Positions 25,351-58,936 of a DNA stretch of 64,000 nt are shown one piece after another. The stretch is from a bacterium A37T11 (lineage in GTDB: Bacteria > Bacteroidota > Bacteroidia > Sphingobacteriales > Sphingobacteriaceae), in the NCBI GenBank assembly GCA_900109895.1, contig FOBR01000010.1, positions 62,001-126,000 of the forward strand, in the 5' to 3' direction. Below the pieces are notes generated by a model. That model made no database searches and was not told the origin of the DNA. It saw nothing but the letters and a program-made list of their open reading frames with translations. The position numbers and the translations under genes were made by a program. Positions within the stretch are counted from its first letter, which is position 1; every line of letters begins with the position of its first letter.

Positions 25351-25386
25351 AAAAAAAAACCGGATCCCGTTGGCCGCGGAATCCGG
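25351..25386 (-). terminator. Antisense-facing intrinsic terminator in fecR-susC gap
   Basis: Hairpin 25360-25386 has six outer pairs, one mismatch, three more pairs and a wobble closing a five-base loop. On the minus strand it is followed by nine T residues (25359-25351). It does not make sense as a terminator of the rightward operon, because the A/T run lies on the wrong side. Confidence 0.75.
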
Positions 25387-25447
25387 AAAATATTTGGGAT
25401 CGACTTCATCCAACTATTGCGAAATTAAATTTAATATTCACCCAAAT
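25351..25447 (-). ncRNA. Predicted antisense RNA over the susC leader, locus 1
   Basis: On the minus strand a TATATTTG box (25460-25453) with a TTTA 19 bases upstream could start a transcript near 25447. A very strong terminator ends it at 25351, giving about 97 nt. It would be fully antisense to the fecR-susC intergenic region up to the susC start. Locus 3 has the same layout. Antisense RNAs of this kind are known for Bacteroides uptake loci (DonS type). No transcript evidence is available here. Confidence 0.45.
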
Positions 25448-25459
25448 TTTTACAAATAT

Positions 25460-28400
25460 ATGCATTATCGTTTATTAAATAAACTTAGATATGCCGGGAG
25501 CTATAAGCGTTCAGGTATATTAGAACAGATTATCATGCGAATGAAAATTACATCCCTGTTGGTATGTGTGGCATGTATTCAAGTCTATGCAACAGCATTT
25601 GGACAGCGAATTACATTAAGTAAAAAACACGCTTCAATGGTAGAAATGTTCAGGGAAATCAGGAAGCAGGGAGAAGTAGATTTTATCTATAAAATCATAC
25701 AGTTAGCACAAGCAAAACCTGTAGATATCGAAGTTAAGGATATGCCCCTTGATCAAGTACTTCAGTTGGTTTTTAAAGACCAGCCAATCGATTATATGAT
25801 AGACAATAAAACGATCATTATTCGCGATAAAAAAATAAAAACAACACTTTACAATCAGGAATATATTAAAGTTTTCGGCACGGTGAGCGATTCATCCGGA
25901 GTTTTAAAGGGAGTCAATATCACGGTGAAAGGTTTCACCAATACAGGGACCGCTACCGATGGTGATGGAAAATACACCTTAGAAGTCCCTATAGGGTCTG
26001 TCATACAATTTCATATTCTCGGCTACAAGGATCAGGAATATACAGTTGCGAAAGAAGGTAAATTAAATGTTCTAATGAAGCCCGAAGAAGCCCAGTTGGA
26101 TGAAATCGTAGTCGTTGGTTACGGTACGCAGAAGAAAATAAACTTAACAGGCGCCATCGTTTCAGTCAAGACCGACCAGCTAACCAAAATACCGGCTGCT
26201 AATTTATCAAATGTGCTGGCTGGGCGAATTCCCGGGGCCACGGTAGTTGGCACATCAGGGTTGGCAGGGGCATCAGCGTCTGTACGTATCAGAGGAAGTT
26301 TTGGGGAACCACTGTACGTAATTAATGGGGTTATCAAAACAAAAGCAGATTTTGATGCACTGGATGTTAATGAAGTCGAGAGTATTAACGTGCTGAAAGA
26401 TGCAGCAAGCGCATCCATTTATGGATCAAGGGCAGGCAATGGCGTCATAGTCATAACCACAAAAAAAGGACTTCTCCAAAAGCCAACGTTTGATTATCAA
26501 GGGTCCTATTCGTTTTCTAATCCAACACGTCCTTTACAGGATTATACCGCTACGCAAGAAATTGAATATGATAATCAGGTAGCGGCAACCATGGGGCAAC
26601 CCAAGCCTTATGGCCAGGACATCTACGATTATTTTAAAGATAAGAATTACCGGATCAATGATTATATATGGCAAACCCCAACCGTACAGCAACATAACCT
26701 AGGTGTGCGGGGTGGAACCGAAAAGATTTTATATAATCTCTCTTTGGGGTACCATAGCGAAGATGGGTCTTATAAAAACTTAAATTATGACCGCTATAAT
26801 TTTCGGTCAAATGTAGTTGCCAATATATCCAAACGCATCAAACTAAGCGCTGACCTGAGTGGAAACCAACGCAGTTATAACCGTTGGTATTGGCCCTACG
26901 ACGGAGCGGAAAATGCCAATGTCAGCGATTTCTACAGGGCTACTTTTAATTGGAGCCGGTTGTATCCATTTTACGTGGATGAACAAGGAAACCCAACCAC
27001 AAATACCGATGCTTTTCCCGTAACACCCGGGGCATGGCATCCAGTTGAACTGGTACTTCATGGAGGTACCAGGGATATAGATTATCGGAATTTTGATGGC
27101 ATCCTTCGTTTTGACGTAGATCTTAGTGATATACTGGACGGTTTAAGCACTAGTTTCCAAGGCCAGTACAACGGTATGGATAAAAGTTCAAAAGCCCTGG
27201 TTTTATTTAACAAAGCATATTTATTTCAATCGGCTAGCGCTACCAACAAATTTATCCCCGGGCCCATTGACCCTACCAAAATAAATTTGCACAATCTGAG
27301 TGCAAATTACCCAAATATTACCGAAGAAGGTAACTTCTACCATTCGTATCAGTATAACTGGTATTTACAATACGATAAAACTTTTGGAAAGCATGAAATA
27401 TCGGCGCTGGGGGTATACGAACAGATGAAAGATAATGGACGGTATATGAATGGTCGGGCAGATGACCTTTTGTCATCGCAAATAGACCAAATATACAATA
27501 CCTCTACGGATGCAACAAAAAGATGGTTTGACGGATATGAGTCAGAAACGGCTCGGGCATCGTGGATTGGCCGCGTGCACTATGGATATGACCAAAAGTA
27601 CATGGTTGAATTTTCTTTTCGTTATGATGGCAATTATAAATTTGCCCCTGGGCAGCGTTGGGGGTTCTTTCCTTCGGTCTCTGCGGCTTGGAGACTGTCA
27701 GAAGAACCATTCCTAAAAGACGTGCATTGGCTTAGCAATTTAAAACTCAGAGGTTCCTATGGAACCACAGGAAATGACAATCCAAGCGGGAATGAAAGCG
27801 AGTCGCTTCCTGGCTTTTTATGGAGCCAAATGTATGAAAAAAGTACAGGTTATGTGTTCGGAACGGCTTATAGTGATGGTCTTGCCCCGGGGGCGTTACC
27901 TAATCCATACATTACTTGGGCAACATCCAAAATGTATGATGCCGGTTTAGAATACGGTTTTTTCAATAATAAACTTTATGGAGAGGTGGATGTATTTAAA
28001 CGCACACTTAGCGACATCCTGGGCACTAGGCTCGGTTCAACCCCATCCACACTTGGAGCTACCCTGCCTTCTGTTAATTATGCGAAAGAATCATGGAAAG
28101 GTTTTGAAGTGTCATTAAACTATGACACCCAAATAGGCAATGTTAAGCTTTCAAGCTATGGAAGCTTAGGTTATGCCATAGATAAATGGGACACTTATGA
28201 CGAAGCGGCCGCCTATACTGACGGTACGTACAAAGATAACTGGCGAAGCGTTATCGGCAAGCCCCGCGACCGGGTTTACGGACTCATCTCAAAAGGGATC
28301 ATCCGCACGCAACAAGAATTGGATAATCTACCAGAAGGATTTACCCAATTCGGCAGAACACCTAAATTGGGTTATCTATTGTTTGAAGACATCAGAGGAC

Positions 28401-50375: not shown

Positions 50376-51752
50376 CTATCTATTATTTTGGGGAATTCCG
50401 GTTAATTGAATTTCTTGTATTGGAATAGGAAACGCATATCTTGAATTGTTGGGTGGAAGGGTATATATTTGTCCATTTAGCGATCTAGTAAGCGTTTTAG
50501 CAAATCTCGGATCCTTATTCAAGCGTCTTAAATCCGACCACCTAAGACCGCGGTATATTAATTCTTTTCTTCGTTCAACTAATATCTGCTTAAGCGCATC
50601 TTCCGCGCTAGATGATGTTCGATTTTTATATAACGTTAGGCCGGTGACCTTGTCAATCGCCCAGCGCTTGACCAATAGAGCATTCAAATCATCCATAGCA
50701 CTACTTTGATCTCCTGATCTAGCCCTTGTTTCTGCTCTGATCAAATACATTTCATCAGTTGTAAGCCCATTACTTGGATTACCAGAGAGATTACCATAAC
50801 TTCCCTGATACAGGACCGATCCATTAGTGCCAGTCCTAAAAAACATGATTTTTCTTAAGTCATTTTTGTCATAAGAATTGTATAGTGCAGTATCTATTGA
50901 TAGATTTATATTTCCACTACTTCTTTGATTATTTTCAAATAATACCTCAACGTTCTGTTTACGAGATAAAGGATATGTCTGGGAAGCATTAATTGTGTTA
51001 TAATCACAAAGGGTGCTATATAATTTCAAAGAAGAATCTGCATTACTTCCCGCCTGTTCGTAATTTTGCATAGTTAAATAAACACGTGCTAAAAGTGCAT
51101 ATACTGCAGGCTTTCCAGGTAACGTTGGGATTTTTAGATTAAAGTCATTGGGTAGTAGAATAAGGGCAGTGTTCAAGTCTTTAATAATTTGGTCATAAGT
51201 CTCCTTAACCGTACTCCGTTGAACTTTCGCAGTAAGATCAGGAGTCAGTCTCAAAACAATACTCAAATCATGATCCGAAGTATTTTGATCATACGGTTGA
51301 CCAAATTGATCTTGTAAGTTAAAGAATGTAAGTGCCCGAAAAAATAAAGCATGTGCTTTTGTCGTATTATATTGTTGATCCTTTGGTAAATTTTTTAAAT
51401 TGGATAATCCGTCCAATACAACATTGCTATAATAAATAGTTCTATATCCGTAATTCCAATCGATTGAGGTTTCGCCTTGGAATATATCTTTTGAACATAT
51501 ATAACTGTTTCTAAGTTGATTAACAACGAATCCTTGCCAAGAAGTAAAACTATACAATACATTGTCAGTTGAATAATCGGGCAATTCCGGCGCGCCCACG
51601 TTCATAAAACTAACAAAGTTCAAAAGATACTGAAGATCATTAATTTCGGTTGGAATTGTTAGCCGACTGTCCGGAACTTTATCCAAATATTTTTTGCAAG
51701 ATGATAGATAAAACGTCGATATAAATATTATGAATATACTATATTTTTTCAT
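50376..51752 (-). CDS. SusD-like lipoprotein, locus 3
   Basis: 458 residues with a lipobox (YLSSC) and the SusD core. The C-terminal QILVERRKELIYRGLRWSDLRR motif and the FPIPIQEIQLTGIPQN end are like those of the locus 2 SusD, as is the start KYLDKVPDSRLTIPTEINDLQYLL. It sits 12 bases after SusC and four bases before TlpA. Binds ligand as the lid of the SusC barrel. Confidence 0.92.
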   Translation of the reverse strand: MKKYSIFIIFISTFYLSSCKKYLDKVPDSRLTIPTEINDLQYLLNFVSFMNVGAPELPDYSTDNVLYSFTSWQGFVVNQLRNSYICSKDIFQGETSIDWNYGYRTIYYSNVVLDGLSNLKNLPKDQQYNTTKAHALFFRALTFFNLQDQFGQPYDQNTSDHDLSIVLRLTPDLTAKVQRSTVKETYDQIIKDLNTALILLPNDFNLKIPTLPGKPAVYALLARVYLTMQNYEQAGSNADSSLKLYSTLCDYNTINASQTYPLSRKQNVEVLFENNQRSSGNINLSIDTALYNSYDKNDLRKIMFFRTGTNGSVLYQGSYGNLSGNPSNGLTTDEMYLIRAETRARSGDQSSAMDDLNALLVKRWAIDKVTGLTLYKNRTSSSAEDALKQILVERRKELIYRGLRWSDLRRLNKDPRFAKTLTRSLNGQIYTLPPNNSRYAFPIPIQEIQLTGIPQNNR

Positions 51753-51764
51753 GATTTCTTTGAA

Positions 51765-54700
51765 TTAAAAATTTACTTTTACTCCCCCACTGATTGTAAA
51801 AGGTATAAGATAGGAATACCCATATCCAGGAATTTGATCGGGATCTACATGATCTTTATTCGCCCTCCACAATATCCCGATATTATCACCAATCAAATAA
51901 ATCTGTAGACTTTCAAAAGGCAACCTTTTATATTGTTTTTTATTTAGATCGTAACTCACACGGATATCTTTTAAACGAATATGATCTCCTTTGTCTATCA
52001 AGGCTTCTGATAACTGATAGAAAACATCTCGATTAAAATCTCCTGGGTAAACCATTGAAGGAACATGGGTTGCTTTTTCATCTCCTGCTTGTTGCCACCG
52101 TTTTTCATAATCGTTATTGCCCAGCGTAGAACCGTTAAAAACATCAGTATAGGAAATTGAAGGTTTTCTAAAGAAATATCCAAATTTATACGTAATGTTA
52201 GCTGATAAAGAGATGTTTTGAAATGAAAAAGTATTCATGAAATTACCAAAAACCGGAGGTAGTTGAGATCCGCTGTACACTAACTCTGAACTATTTAACG
52301 AATTTATTATAGAAGTATAATTTTTACTAATTTCTCCATTTAAATAGCCTTGAGGATCACCATTCGAAGGGTCAAGTCCTTTCCATTTATAACTAAAAAG
52401 CGAACCAACTGGTTTCCCCACTACCGGGCTTCCAGCAACTATATCGCCATTACTCACCGGATCTAATTTATAATCCGTTATTTGATTCTTAGAGATACTA
52501 AATTGAATGGAAGACAACCACTTAAATCGTTCATCGATTGCTTTTGCATTGATAACGAAATCGAAGCCATAGCCCTTCATATCTGAGGTATTACCCCGAT
52601 AACTGGAAAATCCGGATGAAGGCGGTAACACCGCATCTCCAATTAAGTCAACACCTTTTTTTTTATAGTAATCTAAACTTCCAAAAACTCTCTCATTATT
52701 TAGAATCGAAAAATCAAATCCAAAATTAAACTGTTTTGATGTCTCCCATCTGAGATCAGGATTTGGTGGATTAACCACAGAACTGCTTTGCTGGCCATAT
52801 CGGGTGACTGTTCCTAATTGAGTTGTCAGTAATGCAGCTATTCTTCTGTTAACATTTCCATTATAACCATATGTGGTTCTGACTTTTATTGATGGTAACC
52901 AATTTAAATGATAAAAAGGCTCTCTGCTTAAATCCCAACTGAACCCAGATGACCAAAAAGGTGCTATTTTTTGATTTGCATTCACACCAAATATGTTTGC
53001 TCCATCTTTTCTGCCACTTAAAGAGAACGTGTACCGGCTTAAGTAGCTATATGCAACATTTCCAAAGTAAGAAACAAATCGATCATTTAACTCACTTAGG
53101 CCGTCTTTGTTACTTATTTGTTGATTATATCCTGTAACCGGATTTATATAGTATGAAACATAATCCAAATTCGGTACACTTGATAAATGTTCCTTGTCAA
53201 AAGCATAAAATCTCGATGATTGTTCATTGGTAGAGATATTGTTAACTTCAGCGCCGGCAATTCCTGTAATCCAATGTTTATCCCAACTCTGATCATAATT
53301 GATTTGAAAACGTCCATGCTGACCAGTGTATGAGTTAGTTTGTTTATCTAAAATGGCACCCAAAGGAACCGGCCTGTTAACCGAACCATCAGCATTAATG
53401 GAACTAAACCCATTGATATAATCCCTTGTAAAATAAGTGTTTTCGCTGTAAAAATTATCCGTTGTATTTTCACCTTTCGAGTATTGGTATTTCAAATCGG
53501 CACTTAAATTCTTGGTTATATGGTATAACAGTCCAAAGTTTAACTTGTAGTCTACATTTTTTGTTACATTATCAGCGAAATCTAATTCATCCAAAGGTCG
53601 ATAACTCCAGTCTAATAACTTACCTTGTCCAACTGTATCAATCAATGGACTTATATATTTGTTAATTTTTAACGCCTGACCATTTTCGTCTGCCAAACTT
53701 GCGTAAGGATACAATATTCCGCTTCCCTGACTAATAGAATTGGGCGTTATTCCATTATTTTTATTTTTGACTTTCGTGAATACTAAATTTGTAGTGAGCT
53801 CAAGTTTTTCTTTTGCAAACGAATAATTATTCGTTGCGTTAAAAGTAATTCGATTATTGTCGTCTCCCCTAAGGTTACTCAAGGATTTATCATAACCTCC
53901 AAATATAAAATATCTATTATGAGCATCACCCCCTCTTAGGGTTGCACTGTATTGTTGTATTACTGATTTTCGGAATAAGTATTTAGAAAAATCTGTTTTT
54001 ACATCCTTCTCTCCGAATTTATTCAATTCTTCCTGCAAGGCTAGGTTCGATAAATTACCCTTTCGATTTTCAATCATTGCATTGATTGCAGGGGTAAAGG
54101 CATTAACTGAATATGAATCATCAATGTAAGGATCGTAATACCCATTGTTAAACAAATACTTTTCGATTTGGATATAATCTTTACTATTCAATATTGGTGA
54201 ATATGAAAGATCCGGTTTGCCTATAATTGAAATGTTGAAGTTTACTTCTATGGAAACCGACTGATTATATTTACCTTTTTTGCTGGTTATAACAATCACG
54301 CCATTTGCAGCTTTCGCTCCCCAAATTGATGCAGCAGCAGCATCCTTCAATACTGTTATATCCTCTATTGCGTTAGGATTGATATTGGTAAGATCACCGT
54401 CATAAATAAAATTATCTAATACGATGATAGGATCAGCATTTGAATAGATAGTACTCCGGCCCCTGATATTTATTCCCAAGGTGCCATCCCCTGATAAACT
54501 TGACGTATTTGGGTCAAAAAGTAAGCCACTCGTAACCCCTTTTAATCGACTTAAAATATCCGGCCCTACCGTCCGATTCAAGGTTATATTATCTACAAAA
54601 CTAAACGAGCCCGTAGCCCTTTCTTTTGGTAAAGTTTGATACCCTGTGTTTACAATGACCACCTCATTTAATTTACTTGATGTGGTACGCAGCACAATAT

Positions 54701-55295
54701 TTTGGAAAGACAGGTTCTCGGTTACCTTAAATGTATAAGGTGTAAATCCGATAAAAGTTACCGTTACCTCTGAGCCGGATTGGGCCGAAAAAGTAAATTG
54801 GCCATCCTTATCAGTAAGTAGATTATTGGTTTGGCCTTTGATTGTAATAGTGGCTCCGGGCAGTGCTGCACCGGTGGTGTCTGTTACACGACCGGTTATG
54901 GTGATATTCTTTTTGGCCATCTCCGGCCTGGATTCATTTTGTTCAGGATGGCTGATACGGGCAAAGAGAGATTTATTTTTCCTCTCCAACATTATATTTT
55001 TTTCTACCAAACGATAGCCCAGCGGCTGATCCCGGAAAACAGTTTTTAAAAATTCCTCCAGCGGCATGTCTGTTGCAGATACCGTTACCGACTTACTGTC
55101 TTCCAGCATACGCATATTGCCCACCAGTCCATAGCCTGTTTGTTTGCGCACGGCTTGCAATACCTCTGCTAGCGGAAGATATTTCCCCTTAAGCGTGACT
55201 GTTTGTGAATAACTGGCGGCACTGAGATGCAGGAAGCCGCCTAATAGAAGGAGTATGACTAATTTCATTACCCTGAATATGTAATTTTTATTCAT
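51765..55295 (-). CDS. SusC/RagA TonB-dependent transporter with STN domain, locus 3
   Basis: 1176 residues. A signal peptide (MKLVILLLLGGFLHLSAASYSQ) is followed by an STN domain (about 32-105), a CarboxypepD_reg-like domain (ITGRVTDTTGAALPGATITIKG) and the plug (VIVNTGYQTLPKERATGSFSF, LKDAAAASIWGAKAANGVI) and barrel ending KVNF. The plug and parts of the barrel are closely related to locus 2 SusC, which lacks the first two domains. STN and the FecI/FecR genes upstream indicate ligand-induced self-regulation. An antisense RNA is predicted over its leader. Confidence 0.93.
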   Translation of the reverse strand: MNKNYIFRVMKLVILLLLGGFLHLSAASYSQTVTLKGKYLPLAEVLQAVRKQTGYGLVGNMRMLEDSKSVTVSATDMPLEEFLKTVFRDQPLGYRLVEKNIMLERKNKSLFARISHPEQNESRPEMAKKNITITGRVTDTTGAALPGATITIKGQTNNLLTDKDGQFTFSAQSGSEVTVTFIGFTPYTFKVTENLSFQNIVLRTTSSKLNEVVIVNTGYQTLPKERATGSFSFVDNITLNRTVGPDILSRLKGVTSGLLFDPNTSSLSGDGTLGINIRGRSTIYSNADPIIVLDNFIYDGDLTNINPNAIEDITVLKDAAAASIWGAKAANGVIVITSKKGKYNQSVSIEVNFNISIIGKPDLSYSPILNSKDYIQIEKYLFNNGYYDPYIDDSYSVNAFTPAINAMIENRKGNLSNLALQEELNKFGEKDVKTDFSKYLFRKSVIQQYSATLRGGDAHNRYFIFGGYDKSLSNLRGDDNNRITFNATNNYSFAKEKLELTTNLVFTKVKNKNNGITPNSISQGSGILYPYASLADENGQALKINKYISPLIDTVGQGKLLDWSYRPLDELDFADNVTKNVDYKLNFGLLYHITKNLSADLKYQYSKGENTTDNFYSENTYFTRDYINGFSSINADGSVNRPVPLGAILDKQTNSYTGQHGRFQINYDQSWDKHWITGIAGAEVNNISTNEQSSRFYAFDKEHLSSVPNLDYVSYYINPVTGYNQQISNKDGLSELNDRFVSYFGNVAYSYLSRYTFSLSGRKDGANIFGVNANQKIAPFWSSGFSWDLSREPFYHLNWLPSIKVRTTYGYNGNVNRRIAALLTTQLGTVTRYGQQSSSVVNPPNPDLRWETSKQFNFGFDFSILNNERVFGSLDYYKKKGVDLIGDAVLPPSSGFSSYRGNTSDMKGYGFDFVINAKAIDERFKWLSSIQFSISKNQITDYKLDPVSNGDIVAGSPVVGKPVGSLFSYKWKGLDPSNGDPQGYLNGEISKNYTSIINSLNSSELVYSGSQLPPVFGNFMNTFSFQNISLSANITYKFGYFFRKPSISYTDVFNGSTLGNNDYEKRWQQAGDEKATHVPSMVYPGDFNRDVFYQLSEALIDKGDHIRLKDIRVSYDLNKKQYKRLPFESLQIYLIGDNIGILWRANKDHVDPDQIPGYGYSYLIPFTISGGVKVNF

Positions 55296-55308
55296 TAACT
55301 TTGTTTGG

Positions 55309-55404
55309 TTTGGATAGTTAATACCTTATTATTTGTCAGAAAATGGATAAGCACTGATATCCGGACTATTTGGGGAAGGGGATCGAAGACCTTCCCCTCT
55401 TTTT
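55309..55404 (+). ncRNA. Predicted antisense RNA over the susC leader, locus 3
   Basis: On the plus strand TAACTTTG (55296-55303), an exact -7 box with CTG 20 bases upstream (one base from TTG), directly abuts the susC start codon at 55295. A transcript from near 55309 would end at the T run at 55404, about 96 nt, antisense to the susC 5' leader. Same layout and length as at locus 1. No expression evidence. Confidence 0.45.
55372..55404 (+). terminator. Antisense-facing intrinsic terminator in fecR-susC gap
   Basis: GGGGAAGG (55372-55379) pairs perfectly with CCTTCCCC (55390-55397), followed by TCTTTTT. It faces against the leftward operon. Confidence 0.75.
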
Positions 55405-55464
55405 AAGACGCCAGTCTGAACGTCTGTGAGGGTTATGTTTTCATATGTTCTGAATTTATAGGGT

Positions 55465-56652
55465 TTATGGCTGGCCTCCTTTCCCGCCAATAATGACCAA
55501 TTTCTTCCCTGGTTCCAGCCGGTATTTGATTTCATTGGCTTCTAACAGGTTCAGCACGGTCTTGATCTGGCTATTGCGCAGCAGGTCTCCGAAAAATTCG
55601 ATATCAGGTGCTTTGCCTTCGTAGATTACTTCAAAGTTATACCAGCGGGATAGTTCACGCAGGGCTTGTTCCAGATTTTTGTGGTTGAAGTCAAAACGAC
55701 CGTTGCGCCACGCTGTTTCGTTATCTACATTGACTGTGCTAATCGTTAGGCTGTCCCCTTTAACCACGGCTTGTTGCTTTGGCTTTAAAAGTTGTAGGTT
55801 GTACGTTTTACGTTTTACGTTTTCCGATCTGACCTGGACTTTCCCTTCTACAAGGGTTGTTTTCTCGCTGGTTTCGTTTGAATAGGCACTCAGATTAAAG
55901 GATGTAGCCAATACCAGAACCTCTTGCTTTGGGGTTTTTACCTTAAATGGTTTGCCTTTTACATCGGCTATTTGAAAGAATGCTTCGCCTTCTAAAAAGA
56001 CCTCTCTTTTATCTTCAGTAAACCTGGAAGGATATTTTAACGTACTGGCTGCGTTGAGCCAAACCTTTGTTCCGTCACTAAGAATTATCTGATACTGTCC
56101 CCCCTTCGGGGTTGTTAATGTTAAAGAAGTGGGCAGAGATGTTTCGGCTCCGCTCGCTTCCTTCCCACCGTCCTCGCTCAACATGACGTTCTTTATAATT
56201 TCGCCGTTGTTGTATTTAATATTTTCGTCGTTGACGATAATCCCGCTTTGCGCACTATCTAAGGCTAACTTTGTGCCGTCGGCTAATGTCAGGGTTGCTT
56301 GGTTATATCCCGGGATGATTGCTTGATTTACGATGGTTGATTTACGATTTACGATGGCTCCGCTTCGATAAAAGTATAGGCTGGTAGCTAGTGACACGAT
56401 GAAAAGGGCTGCCGCGCTGGTTAACCAGATAAGCCGGTGGGGTTTCTTTTGGATTACTGGCCGGGTTTTGTCAAGGATGTTTTGCTGCAAACGCCTAAAC
56501 ACGGCTGCTTCCTCTTCCGGTCCTTCGGCAGGCCACGCTACTTCTTCATGGTTAAAGGAGTGGTACCAGGCCAGCAGCTCATCGCGCTCCGCTTCGGTTG
56601 CTGAACCACCAAGGTATTGTTCAAGAAGGTATTTTAAATGCGTATGCTCCAC
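55465..56652 (-). CDS. FecR-type anti-sigma factor, locus 3
   Basis: 395 residues: cytoplasmic helical N terminus, a transmembrane helix at about 74-95, then a periplasmic FecR domain (LSDGTKVWLNAASTLKYPS, GEAFFQIADVKG, VLATSFNLSAYS) and the C-terminal domain that meets the STN domain of SusC. Standard partner of the sigma factor encoded 76 bases upstream and of the SusC encoded downstream. Confidence 0.92.
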   Translation of the reverse strand: MEHTHLKYLLEQYLGGSATEAERDELLAWYHSFNHEEVAWPAEGPEEEAAVFRRLQQNILDKTRPVIQKKPHRLIWLTSAAALFIVSLATSLYFYRSGAIVNRKSTIVNQAIIPGYNQATLTLADGTKLALDSAQSGIIVNDENIKYNNGEIIKNVMLSEDGGKEASGAETSLPTSLTLTTPKGGQYQIILSDGTKVWLNAASTLKYPSRFTEDKREVFLEGEAFFQIADVKGKPFKVKTPKQEVLVLATSFNLSAYSNETSEKTTLVEGKVQVRSENVKRKTYNLQLLKPKQQAVVKGDSLTISTVNVDNETAWRNGRFDFNHKNLEQALRELSRWYNFEVIYEGKAPDIEFFGDLLRNSQIKTVLNLLEANEIKYRLEPGKKLVIIGGKGGQP

Positions 56653-56728: not shown

Positions 56729-57310
56729 CTATAGCAGGGGCAGACCAAATGCCGTGACCATCAGCAGATCATTATCGTTGAGGTTATTTTTGATGGTTTT
56801 GATAGCTTTGCTCAGGTGTGCTTCGACGGTTTTTTCGGCTATATCCATCTTTTGAGCTATTTCACGGTTGTTAAGGCCATCCGTTCGGCTATAAATAAAT
56901 ACCAGACGGCATTTTTCAGGAAGGTTCTCCACAATGCCATCGATGTATTCCTGCAGGAAGCGCGCATAGACTTGCTCATGGTCATAGGTAATAGCTGCTG
57001 GGGAATAATGCTGTGCTGCCAGTTCTTTGCGGTGCAAATCACGTTGCAGGGTGCGGAAAACCGAAAACTTAATGGAGGTAGCAAGGTAAGCCTCCAGCGA
57101 TTTAATCGCCACATCTTGCCGCTTTTCCCAGAGTGAAACGAAAACTTCCTGCACCACTTCCTCAGCAAGGGCTTTATCACGGCTATAATTATAAGCCATC
57201 GCCAGTAATTTTCGTTTAAATCGCTCATAAATTTGCGTAAAAGCGCCATGATCGCCTTCTTTTAACAAAGAAGTCAGCTGTTCATCCGTCATTTTGCTTA
57301 AGTTGCGCAT
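56729..57310 (-). CDS. ECF sigma factor (FecI type), locus 3
   Basis: 193 residues. Region 2 runs from about 20 to 90 (FTQIYERFKRKLLAMAYN, AEEVVQEVFVSLWEKR) and region 4 from about 125 to 180 (LPEKCRLVFIYSRTDGLNNREIAQKMDIAEKTVEAHLS). It is expected to drive SusC locus 3 when its FecR releases it. A -7 box lies just upstream. Confidence 0.92.
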   Translation of the reverse strand: MRNLSKMTDEQLTSLLKEGDHGAFTQIYERFKRKLLAMAYNYSRDKALAEEVVQEVFVSLWEKRQDVAIKSLEAYLATSIKFSVFRTLQRDLHRKELAAQHYSPAAITYDHEQVYARFLQEYIDGIVENLPEKCRLVFIYSRTDGLNNREIAQKMDIAEKTVEAHLSKAIKTIKNNLNDNDLLMVTAFGLPLL

Positions 57311-57361: not shown

Positions 57362-58936
57362 TTACAGACCAACAACTTCTTCCTCAAATGCCAGACCACC
57401 CTTTGAAAAGGCTAATGCCAGTAAGTGTACAGTTTTTCCCTGGTTCAGGTAAGGCTTATGATAGCTAGTTTCTTTAATCTGGTTCATGGCTGTAGTGAGT
57501 GCTGCTGATGCCCCCTTTTTTGGTGCAGCATATTTGATCTCTACGACATACACGTGTGCTTTAAATGATAATACAGCATCCGTTCGCCCGCCTCCATGTG
57601 TGCTTTCGCCAGTATGATCAATACCTGATAAGATCATGGCTAATTGGAAGAGGGCTTGGTAATGGCTCTCGTTTTTATTGGAATCGTGGGTATTGTGGGT
57701 GGTATTCGAAAGCAGGATATCCAGGTTTTCTACTGCCAATGCCGTGTTTCCCTCACTAAATGCCAGCCGAATGTTCTTGCTCAGTACATGCAAATTGCTG
57801 ATGTTGTCTTGGTAAATATCGGTTAAAACCAATTCTGAAATGGCCTTACGTACTTCCTCATTAGGTATCTTCAATACATAACTGCTCTCTTCTTCGTCAA
57901 ATGATTTGATGGTTAAATAACCTGCTTGAAACAATAATCCAATGCTATTGAGTTTTTCGATGGTCTGCCCGTCAGTAAAAGTGTCCGGTACATTAATCGA
58001 GTCTTTTAGTACAGTTTCCAGGTTATTGCCAGTATTAAGTAGTTTTAATAAGAAGGTTGGTGTACCCGTACTATACCAGAAAGGCTTGTACAAGTTTTTT
58101 TCAAATAATAACAAAACAGAATACGGGTTGTAAACAAAAACCTTTCCGTCCCAGCTGTAACCGTTATACCAGTATTTAATATCAGTAAGTACTTCTGCTT
58201 TTGATTTATTCTTTTTCTCAGCAAACTTGTCAATATGACCGGTAAAAAAGTGTTCCAATTCTTGTTGGCTATACCCACAAATACCGGCAAAGGAAGTATC
58301 CAGGCTGATGTCATTTAGGTTATTAAAGCCCGAAAAAATGGAGGTTTGGCTGACTTTTGTAATGCCTGAGACCATTAAAAATTTCAACACGGAAGAAGAC
58401 GCTTTTAAAACGCCATAAAAAGTTTGCAGAATTGCACGTATCTCATCGGCATTTTTTAAATCATGAATGGCGTCCAGAATAGGTTTGTCGTACTCGTCTA
58501 CAAGTACAACTATTTGTTTATAAGTCTTTTCGTGAAGCTGATGGATCATTCTGGATAGAAAGGATGCGGGGATATCAACGTCAATATCCAGACCCTCAGC
58601 CACAGCCATATCCTGTAATTTATTCAATAAGCTCTTTTTGAACTCGGGCACTGAGGTTATATCCAGCCCGCTCATATCCAACTTTAACACCGGGTATGTT
58701 TCCCATTCAATCTTGTCTTCGATGAAAAGTCCCTTGAACAACTCTTTTTTACCTTCAAAGATTGCCTTGATGGTACTTAAGAACAAACTTTTTCCAAAAC
58801 GCCGTGGACGGCTCAGAAAAAAAGCCCGGCCGCTGCTCGAAATCATTTGAAGCATATATGCCGTTTTATCGACATATACGCCATTATCCGCTACCAGATT
58901 TTCAAAACTATCCTGTCCGATGGGCAATCCTTTCAT
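57362..58936 (-). CDS. AAA-ATPase-like protein with C-terminal PD-(D/E)XK nuclease domain
   Basis: 524 residues of the widespread AAA-ATPase_like plus nuclease (PF09820 with DUF1703) group. Residues 1-280 hold the ATPase with RPRRFGKS (43-50) and VVLVDEYDKP (about 142-151). The C-terminal domain (about 385-524) keeps the nuclease residues D453 and E466-I-K468 in VVEIKYA. The family is common in Bacteroidota, often in many copies; a role in mobile elements or defence has been suggested but is unproven. This is the complete paralogue of the truncated gene at 44796-45962. Confidence 0.85.
   Translation of the reverse strand: MKGLPIGQDSFENLVADNGVYVDKTAYMLQMISSSGRAFFLSRPRRFGKSLFLSTIKAIFEGKKELFKGLFIEDKIEWETYPVLKLDMSGLDITSVPEFKKSLLNKLQDMAVAEGLDIDVDIPASFLSRMIHQLHEKTYKQIVVLVDEYDKPILDAIHDLKNADEIRAILQTFYGVLKASSSVLKFLMVSGITKVSQTSIFSGFNNLNDISLDTSFAGICGYSQQELEHFFTGHIDKFAEKKNKSKAEVLTDIKYWYNGYSWDGKVFVYNPYSVLLLFEKNLYKPFWYSTGTPTFLLKLLNTGNNLETVLKDSINVPDTFTDGQTIEKLNSIGLLFQAGYLTIKSFDEEESSYVLKIPNEEVRKAISELVLTDIYQDNISNLHVLSKNIRLAFSEGNTALAVENLDILLSNTTHNTHDSNKNESHYQALFQLAMILSGIDHTGESTHGGGRTDAVLSFKAHVYVVEIKYAAPKKGASAALTTAMNQIKETSYHKPYLNQGKTVHLLALAFSKGGLAFEEEVVGL

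Follow-up and report, generated by a model that had tools for sequence, protein, structure and literature searches.

A predicted antisense RNA gene between fecR and susC in a Sphingobacteriaceae bacterium, probably related to the DonS RNAs of Bacteroides

The DNA analysed here (the window) is a stretch of 64,000 nucleotides from contig FOBR01000010.1 of bacterium A37T11, a member of the Sphingobacteriaceae. By open reading frame calls and Pfam matches its locus 3 is a minus-strand operon of an ECF-type sigma factor gene, fecR, an STN-domain susC and susD. The sigma-70 family factor of ECF type (56729-57310) has region 2 and region 4 domains, fecR (55465-56652) encodes FecR and FecR_C domains, susC (51765-55295), the presumed target of the RNA discussed below, encodes STN, carboxypeptidase-regulatory-like, plug and barrel domains, and susD occupies 50376-51752. 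Just upstream of the sigma factor gene, and on the same strand, is a gene with AAA-ATPase_like and PDDEXK_9 domains (57362-58936).

The fecR-susC gap of locus 3 is 169 bases long and carries, both on its plus strand, a putative promoter box and a terminator that opposes the operon. The box, TAACTTTG (55296-55303), starts right after the CAT at 55293-55295 that is the susC ATG reversed, and it fits TAnnTTTG, which excerpts of PMC7366714 give as the -7 motif of the primary sigma factor. The intrinsic terminator (55372-55404) is made up of hairpin 2 (55372-55397) and a T tail; its parts are GGGGAAGG (55372-55379), a 10-nt loop, CCTTCCCC (55390-55397) and TCTTTTT (55398-55404), with a dG of -14.6. 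An antisense RNA complementary to the susC leader is predicted to extend from a putative start at 55308 to 55404, about 97 nt, and to fold (-29.6 kcal/mol) into two hairpins, the first of which pairs the 5' arm GUUUGGAUA (55308-55316) with the 3' arm UAUCCGGAC (55358-55366). The preliminary description of the window had placed an exact -7 box against the susC start codon on the antisense strand and a strong terminator facing the operon, and both are indeed there; its RNA of 96 nt was nearly the same size as the one predicted here. A simple sigma-70 promoter and terminator scanner did not list this terminator (the loop of 10 exceeds the scanner's limit of 8), and its promoter part is unfit for Bacteroidota. 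Directly on the fecR side of the terminator lies a palindrome, AGACG...CGTCT (55406-55425), which recurs in gaps 32, 49, 59, 61, 73 and others, with AGACGT in 8 of 53 against 0.7 expected; it is possibly an operator or part of an ECF promoter. When the gaps were searched for an ECF promoter of susC, no motif proved consistent; the only element noted, a GACGT...GCGTC palindrome, is confined to a minority of gaps.

The same antisense layout is found at locus 1 of the window, on the minus strand, where a box TATATTTG (25453-25460), antisense to susC, is followed by a predicted RNA at 25352-25449 that includes a terminator (25360-25386) and its T tail. As had been noted earlier, the primary sequences of the locus 1 and locus 3 candidates differ; structural model R3 (see below) nonetheless matches both, at locus 1 with an E-value of 2.0e-4 (C19:87352-87449:-, C19 being our label for the contig). 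Locus 2, which has neither STN nor FecR and which had been described as lacking the layout, has no antisense terminator (L340). One further susC lies at the right edge of the window, and its antisense RNA, by model match, is just beyond that edge (C19:126020-126114, or 64020-64114 in window numbering). The preliminary description had assigned the device to "STN-type SusC loci", an assignment that is firm for the STN domain at locus 3 only, the matches at locus 1 (22.9 bits) and at the right-edge susC (23.9 bits) both being below the Pfam cut-off of 28.4. The feature common to all susC loci of the window that have the antisense layout is FecR rather than STN.

Orthologues of this exact locus are scarce: among 251 genomes of the same family only its own genome has a match to the locus 3 FecR at E<=1e-110, and a search with the locus 3 susC found six loci of 23-38% identity. 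Conservation was therefore tested across paralogues and genera. The genome of A37T11 (5.09 Mb in 60 contigs) has 80 FecR matches, around each of which 6.5 to 16.3 kb was examined; five genomes of the same family have 17 to 32, and FecR-type signalling importers are thus strongly expanded here. A long open frame starts within 400 bases of the fecR stop at 78 of the 80 loci. Terminators were sought with a strict RNAfold-based detector (dG<=-12 and a T-rich tail) in gaps of 50-350 bases that precede an open reading frame of at least 800 amino acids, with crude longest-frame gene calls on 1.18 Mb around the FecR genes rather than on the whole genome. Sixty-one of the 80 loci are within these limits (two of three more, with a smaller downstream frame, also have the terminator), and an antisense terminator is present in 55 of these 61 gaps and a sense terminator in one. 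In 202 other codirectional gaps there are 19 antisense and 23 sense terminators (Fisher 3e-33), a conservative control because four of the 19 are themselves family members whose fecR is mis-split or apart from susC. The 64 gaps before fecR have four antisense terminators and one sense terminator, and dinucleotide-shuffled copies of the 61 gaps have an antisense terminator in 21 of 305 cases. Over all 80 FecR loci the strict antisense terminator is found at 63. The comparison of all fecR-susC gaps that had been proposed from the window therefore favours the idea that the layout is not due to chance and that it belongs to a general device of susC loci, with recurrence at FecR-linked susC as the supported part.

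The linkage to FecR was examined with a SusC list drawn up with TIGR04056, in which 56 of 230 first-look candidates were scored: 23 are FecR-linked, 32 are not, and one, C47, which has an FecR_C remnant before susC, was set aside. The 32 listed FecR-less susC genes and locus 2 of the window form a control set of 33, and within 250 nt upstream of susC not one of the 33 has an antisense terminator; the same procedure finds one at 62 of 78 FecR-linked susC genes, 48 of the 62 also having the box (Fisher 1.9e-16). Of the FecR loci, 17 are without a strict terminator. At eight of them no more than about 40 bases separate the fecR stop from the susC start; at two (77 and 30) the hairpin is there but its tail is weaker; and at two (12 and 43) fecR is followed by a small gene, beyond which, ahead of susC, comes the antisense terminator. 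At loci 23, 50, 56, 60 and 66 the gap is roomier and the terminator is still apparently absent. SusD follows at 62 of the 63 loci with a terminator and at 14 of the 17 without, so its presence does not explain the difference between the two groups. At locus 43 (C17, L073:4702-5235) the gene that separates fecR from susC is NusG-like (PF02357, E 4.2e-12), and the antisense RNA is still directly before susC (model match C17:217291-217386). At locus 12 (C29, L042) a protein of 125 residues, with no Pfam match at E<=0.001, is encoded about 130 bases past the fecR stop, between fecR and a susC-like frame. Locus 54 (C16, L084) has a tandem duplication of about 130 nt before susC that includes the -7 box.

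The putative promoter of the antisense unit recurs with the terminator. On the antisense strand TAnnTTTG stands 40-110 nt upstream of the strict terminator at 49 of the 63 loci, mostly abutting or near the susC start codon, and the bin of 60-79 nt holds 35 boxes against an expectation of about 0.8; at the other 14 loci an exact TAnnTTTG is missing from the expected position. The sense strand of the same loci has eight boxes, scattered over 300 nt. Other genes often have the sense box ahead of them (28 of 147) and seldom the antisense box (5 of 147); in 61 fecR-susC gaps, over the 60 nt that precede the first ATG, the sense box occurs twice and the antisense box 17 times. A translation motif of the sense strand was considered as the source of CAAAnnTA and was not supported when checked on other genes. 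No -33 motif was seen upstream of the antisense -7 boxes at the loci of this genome; in Flavobacterium johnsoniae, too, none was found, according to excerpts of PMC7366714.

Between box and terminator, the predicted RNAs mostly form two hairpins, their 5' end (as with GUUUGGAUA at locus 3) pairing with a segment just before the terminator (there UAUCCGGAC), and in 45 of 49 RNA bodies the outermost pair encloses 70% or more of the length, where shuffles lead one to expect 19.6. The predicted length is 78-128 nt in 46 of the 49, and the middle region varies between loci. A first alignment (A1) was of poor quality and contained one wrongly cut sequence, and a MAFFT alignment of 40 RNAs gave a consensus fold that left hairpin 1 unpaired; a seed of 13 sequences with a hand-given structure was used in their place. 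In a set of 27 sequences, all from this genome, changes on both sides affect 13 of 19 pairs (60 cells, 11.1 when shuffled), and in a set of 72 from many genera they affect 18 of 19, including all nine pairs of hairpin 1 (222 cells, 48.8 when shuffled), counts that lean to the structure, which was drawn from the same sequences and to which the alignments were then fitted. When the partner is slid by 1-3 columns in the 72 sequences, pairing drops from 95.6% to 36-48%. Alignment A5 includes two mirror-strand rows (L260 1560-1672 and L341 1543-1631). The box test, the comparison of strands and the FecR linkage of model matches are independent of the hand-given structure. As judged from these alignments, the two-hairpin fold of the putative RNA is conserved and covaries across paralogues and genera.

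Three covariance models, R1 (13 seeds), R2 and R3, were used for genome scans; their E-values are rough (short calibration). R1 has 23 matches at E<1e-5 in the whole 5.1-Mb genome of A37T11, all antisense before a susC, 13 of the 23 being the seeds themselves; by coordinates 22 are in fecR-susC gaps and one is directly before susC beyond a NusG-like gene. The locus 3 RNA is one of the seeds (C19:117306-117405, window 55306-55405). At E up to 10 the matches number 29, of which two are without FecR nearby (C50:9701, E 0.96, and C12:1513, E 9.1). R3 has 32 matches in this genome, locus 1 included, each beside FecR by coordinates except one, before the susC of locus 43. R2 finds members in at least 19 of 61 genomes and 12 of 25 genera of the same family, and in at least five of 198 genomes of a phylum sample (this genome being included in both), figures that are lower bounds since scans of more than 40 genomes had stricter filters. 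Among 34 chosen genomes R3 has matches in 17. It has two in G500, a genome of the family of Prevotella denticola (a family to which GTDB assigns Bacteroides as well), and the two lie in fecR-susC gaps on the antisense strand; Pedobacter ginsengisoli has one model match, likewise placed, and a Prolixibacteraceae MAG has 17 matches at 16 distinct sites. Prevotella denticola itself, a Flavobacteriaceae MAG and a Chitinophagaceae MAG have none at E<=0.1. Sixty matches outside the genome of A37T11 were examined with their DNA, and 57 are antisense between FecR and SusC frames; of the other three, L389 lies next to FecR where its contig ends, L355 mirrors a site already counted, and L248 has neither gene. 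The box, which is absent from the model, begins 9-12 nt before the RNA at 24 of 31 sites, where the chance is 0.007 per site. In one genome (G006) two tandem antisense matches (C19:470713-470824 and 471027-471135 of that genome; L252, L395) lie between the same fecR and susC.

The layout was also sought outside this genome by terminator alone, in a survey that leaves out L178, L200 and L205 (orientation ambiguous) and L177 and L196-L198. In five genera of the same family a strict terminator is present at 20 of the best 30 of 120 FecR matches (L147-L176, five genomes), and 16 of the 20 also have the box at 40-110 nt. With looser criteria (dG<=-9 and 4 T, figures without a shuffle control) an antisense hairpin is found at six of six FecR loci in G281, seven of ten in G307, six of eight in G016 and nine of 16 in G278; for the family of P. 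denticola the layout is patchier, with such hairpins in 18 of 37 gaps and the box in eight of these. As far as model matches and predicted hairpins indicate, the layout is present in other genera and families, including the Prolixibacteraceae and the family of P. denticola.

Cao et al. (2016, J Bacteriol 198:2410) reportedly described a DonS family of cis-antisense RNAs of polysaccharide utilization loci (PULs) in Bacteroides fragilis. Excerpts of PMC7366714 present DonS as the representative of a family of cis-antisense RNAs of 78-128 nt that are divergent to susC and lower its expression. We consider it likely that the fecR-susC gap of locus 3 contains a small gene of this type, that is, one for a predicted cis-antisense repressor of susC, and the RNA is probably a brake on the import gene until the food signal arrives. 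The primary sigma factor would transcribe it from the -7 box at the susC start codon, and its pairing partner would be the stretch of susC leader that lies between about 13 and about 110 nt ahead of that codon; pairing would repress susC through a block of translation or cleavage of the duplex, perhaps aided by polymerase collision. Hairpin 1 would bury the 5' end and so stabilise the RNA, and the locus-specific loop region would be displayed for pairing. Since sense terminators are nearly absent from the gaps, transcription of the sigma-fecR operon could run on into susC, and this, with the occurrence of the RNA only at FecR-linked susC genes, suggests as its purpose the silencing of such a leak until the ECF sigma factor has been set free and there is more sense than antisense RNA. 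Depending on where susC transcription starts and where the ECF promoter lies, the predicted antisense RNA may miss the induced mRNA.

An antisense unit that acts by transcriptional interference or as a roadblock, its RNA being dispensable, would suit a promoter that is sited at the susC start codon and directed against susC transcription; collision alone needs no conserved, covarying RNA fold, and we think this reading improbable, if the least so of the alternatives. The RNAs might also target many susC messages in trans, or be bound through their common hairpin by one protein, and nutrient use would be ranked in this way. Their terminators have a GTG...CAC apex in 23 of 63 cases (none of 33 ordinary gene terminators of the same DNA has it), which may be where a protein binds or may reflect shared ancestry, and some non-cognate leaders pair strongly, the best of them (close paralogues) at -81.1 kcal/mol. 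Cognate duplexes, however, average -109 kcal/mol, non-cognate ones -19.5 and those with shuffled leaders -15.1, and the middle region differs from locus to locus, so that the RNA should act mainly on its own locus and action in trans is quite unlikely.

We give about equally little credence to the view that there is no antisense transcript and that the hairpins work on the sense strand, as a susC mRNA leader that governs stability, processing or translation. That strand has the same inverted repeats and also a stable terminator stem, and the words CCAAAC and TATCCA, which are enriched before the susC start codon, could in principle be sense elements. Several strand-specific properties point instead to the antisense side. 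The strongest hairpins of 46 fecR-susC gaps, chosen with no requirement for T's, have 5.4 A's in the eight positions of their sense 5' flank (the antisense T tail), and 52 hairpins of other gaps have 3.3. Without the terminator, the 49 RNA bodies have a mean folding z-score of -2.34 on the antisense strand (29 below -2) and -0.48 on the sense strand (three below -2), the antisense energy being the lower in all 49, and at 30 of 31 sites in other genomes the whole RNA also folds more strongly in the antisense direction. Finally, it is on the antisense strand that TAnnTTTG is rightly placed, and its sense-strand reading, CAAAnnTA, is rare before other genes. Least probable of all is that the hairpin 1 inverted repeat is a DNA operator instead of an RNA structure, for although its arms are conserved words close to the start codon, double changes at every pair of the hairpin and U-G pairs in the stem whose sense-strand counterparts would be C-A fit an RNA helix, and an operator gives no reason for a strand difference in folding energy.

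The covariance model and the FecR rule (an RNA at most FecR-linked susC genes that have room for it, and at none of the 33 FecR-less ones) would allow antisense RNAs to be predicted from sequence in unstudied Bacteroidota, and they point to where existing RNA-seq should be inspected; the silencing of sigma-fecR read-through into susC is offered as a testable reason for the device. A wider and more speculative proposal, to which we hold only tentatively, is that a structured RNA family extends over the class as a near-regular third regulatory part beside the ECF sigma factor and FecR in FecR-SusC systems, DonS being an example. Dozens of RNAs residing in the same genome, built on a single frame but with loops specific to each locus, would then determine each importer's threshold; by way of an RNA-binding protein that recognises the hairpin they have in common, they might also rank nutrient use.

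No known RNA family accounts for these RNAs in Rfam release 15, which has no match in the window at gathering scores and none in 14 member loci at E up to 2; the only Rfam match in the locus 3 gap is HCV_SL669 on the minus strand, at chance level (15.4 bits against a gathering score of 80). Among the portions of open-licence literature searched, no description of the fold, the FecR linkage or the taxonomic spread was found. As for PUL antisense RNAs themselves, excerpts report them for 15 PULs of B. fragilis (PMC9723704), call the mechanism of DonS unknown (PMC11697453), and for B. thetaiotaomicron list 10 PUL-associated antisense RNAs in 2020 (PMC7366714) and 32 in 2024 (PMC10994844), with both positive and negative correlations with the cognate susC (PMC10994844); 52% of the cis-antisense RNAs of that species have a canonical primary-sigma promoter (PMC7366714), and the authors call for functional characterisation of PUL antisense RNAs (PMC10994844). 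The B. thetaiotaomicron RNAs resemble those predicted here in being antisense to susC homologues; theirs are known from RNA-seq, several having been seen by northern blot, and the excerpts compared mention no common structure or sequence model for them. With DonS, as described in those excerpts, the RNAs predicted here share their place, antisense at the start of a susC homologue (at locus 3 and in the 57 other-genome matches noted above), and a length range that holds both the 97 nt of locus 3 and all but three of the 49 predicted RNAs. TAnnTTTG and an intrinsic terminator are present as well, and to take both as features of the DonS kind is our own reading rather than a quoted definition. 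They differ from DonS, as so described, in that they occur at most FecR-linked susC genes, and at none of the FecR-less control genes, of a genome outside Bacteroides; they also have a covarying two-hairpin fold in common, which DonS might share. By length, place, orientation and promoter motif the antisense RNAs predicted here are a probable new member of the DonS kind, and the RNA of locus 3 is probably a relative of the Bacteroides DonS antisense RNAs.
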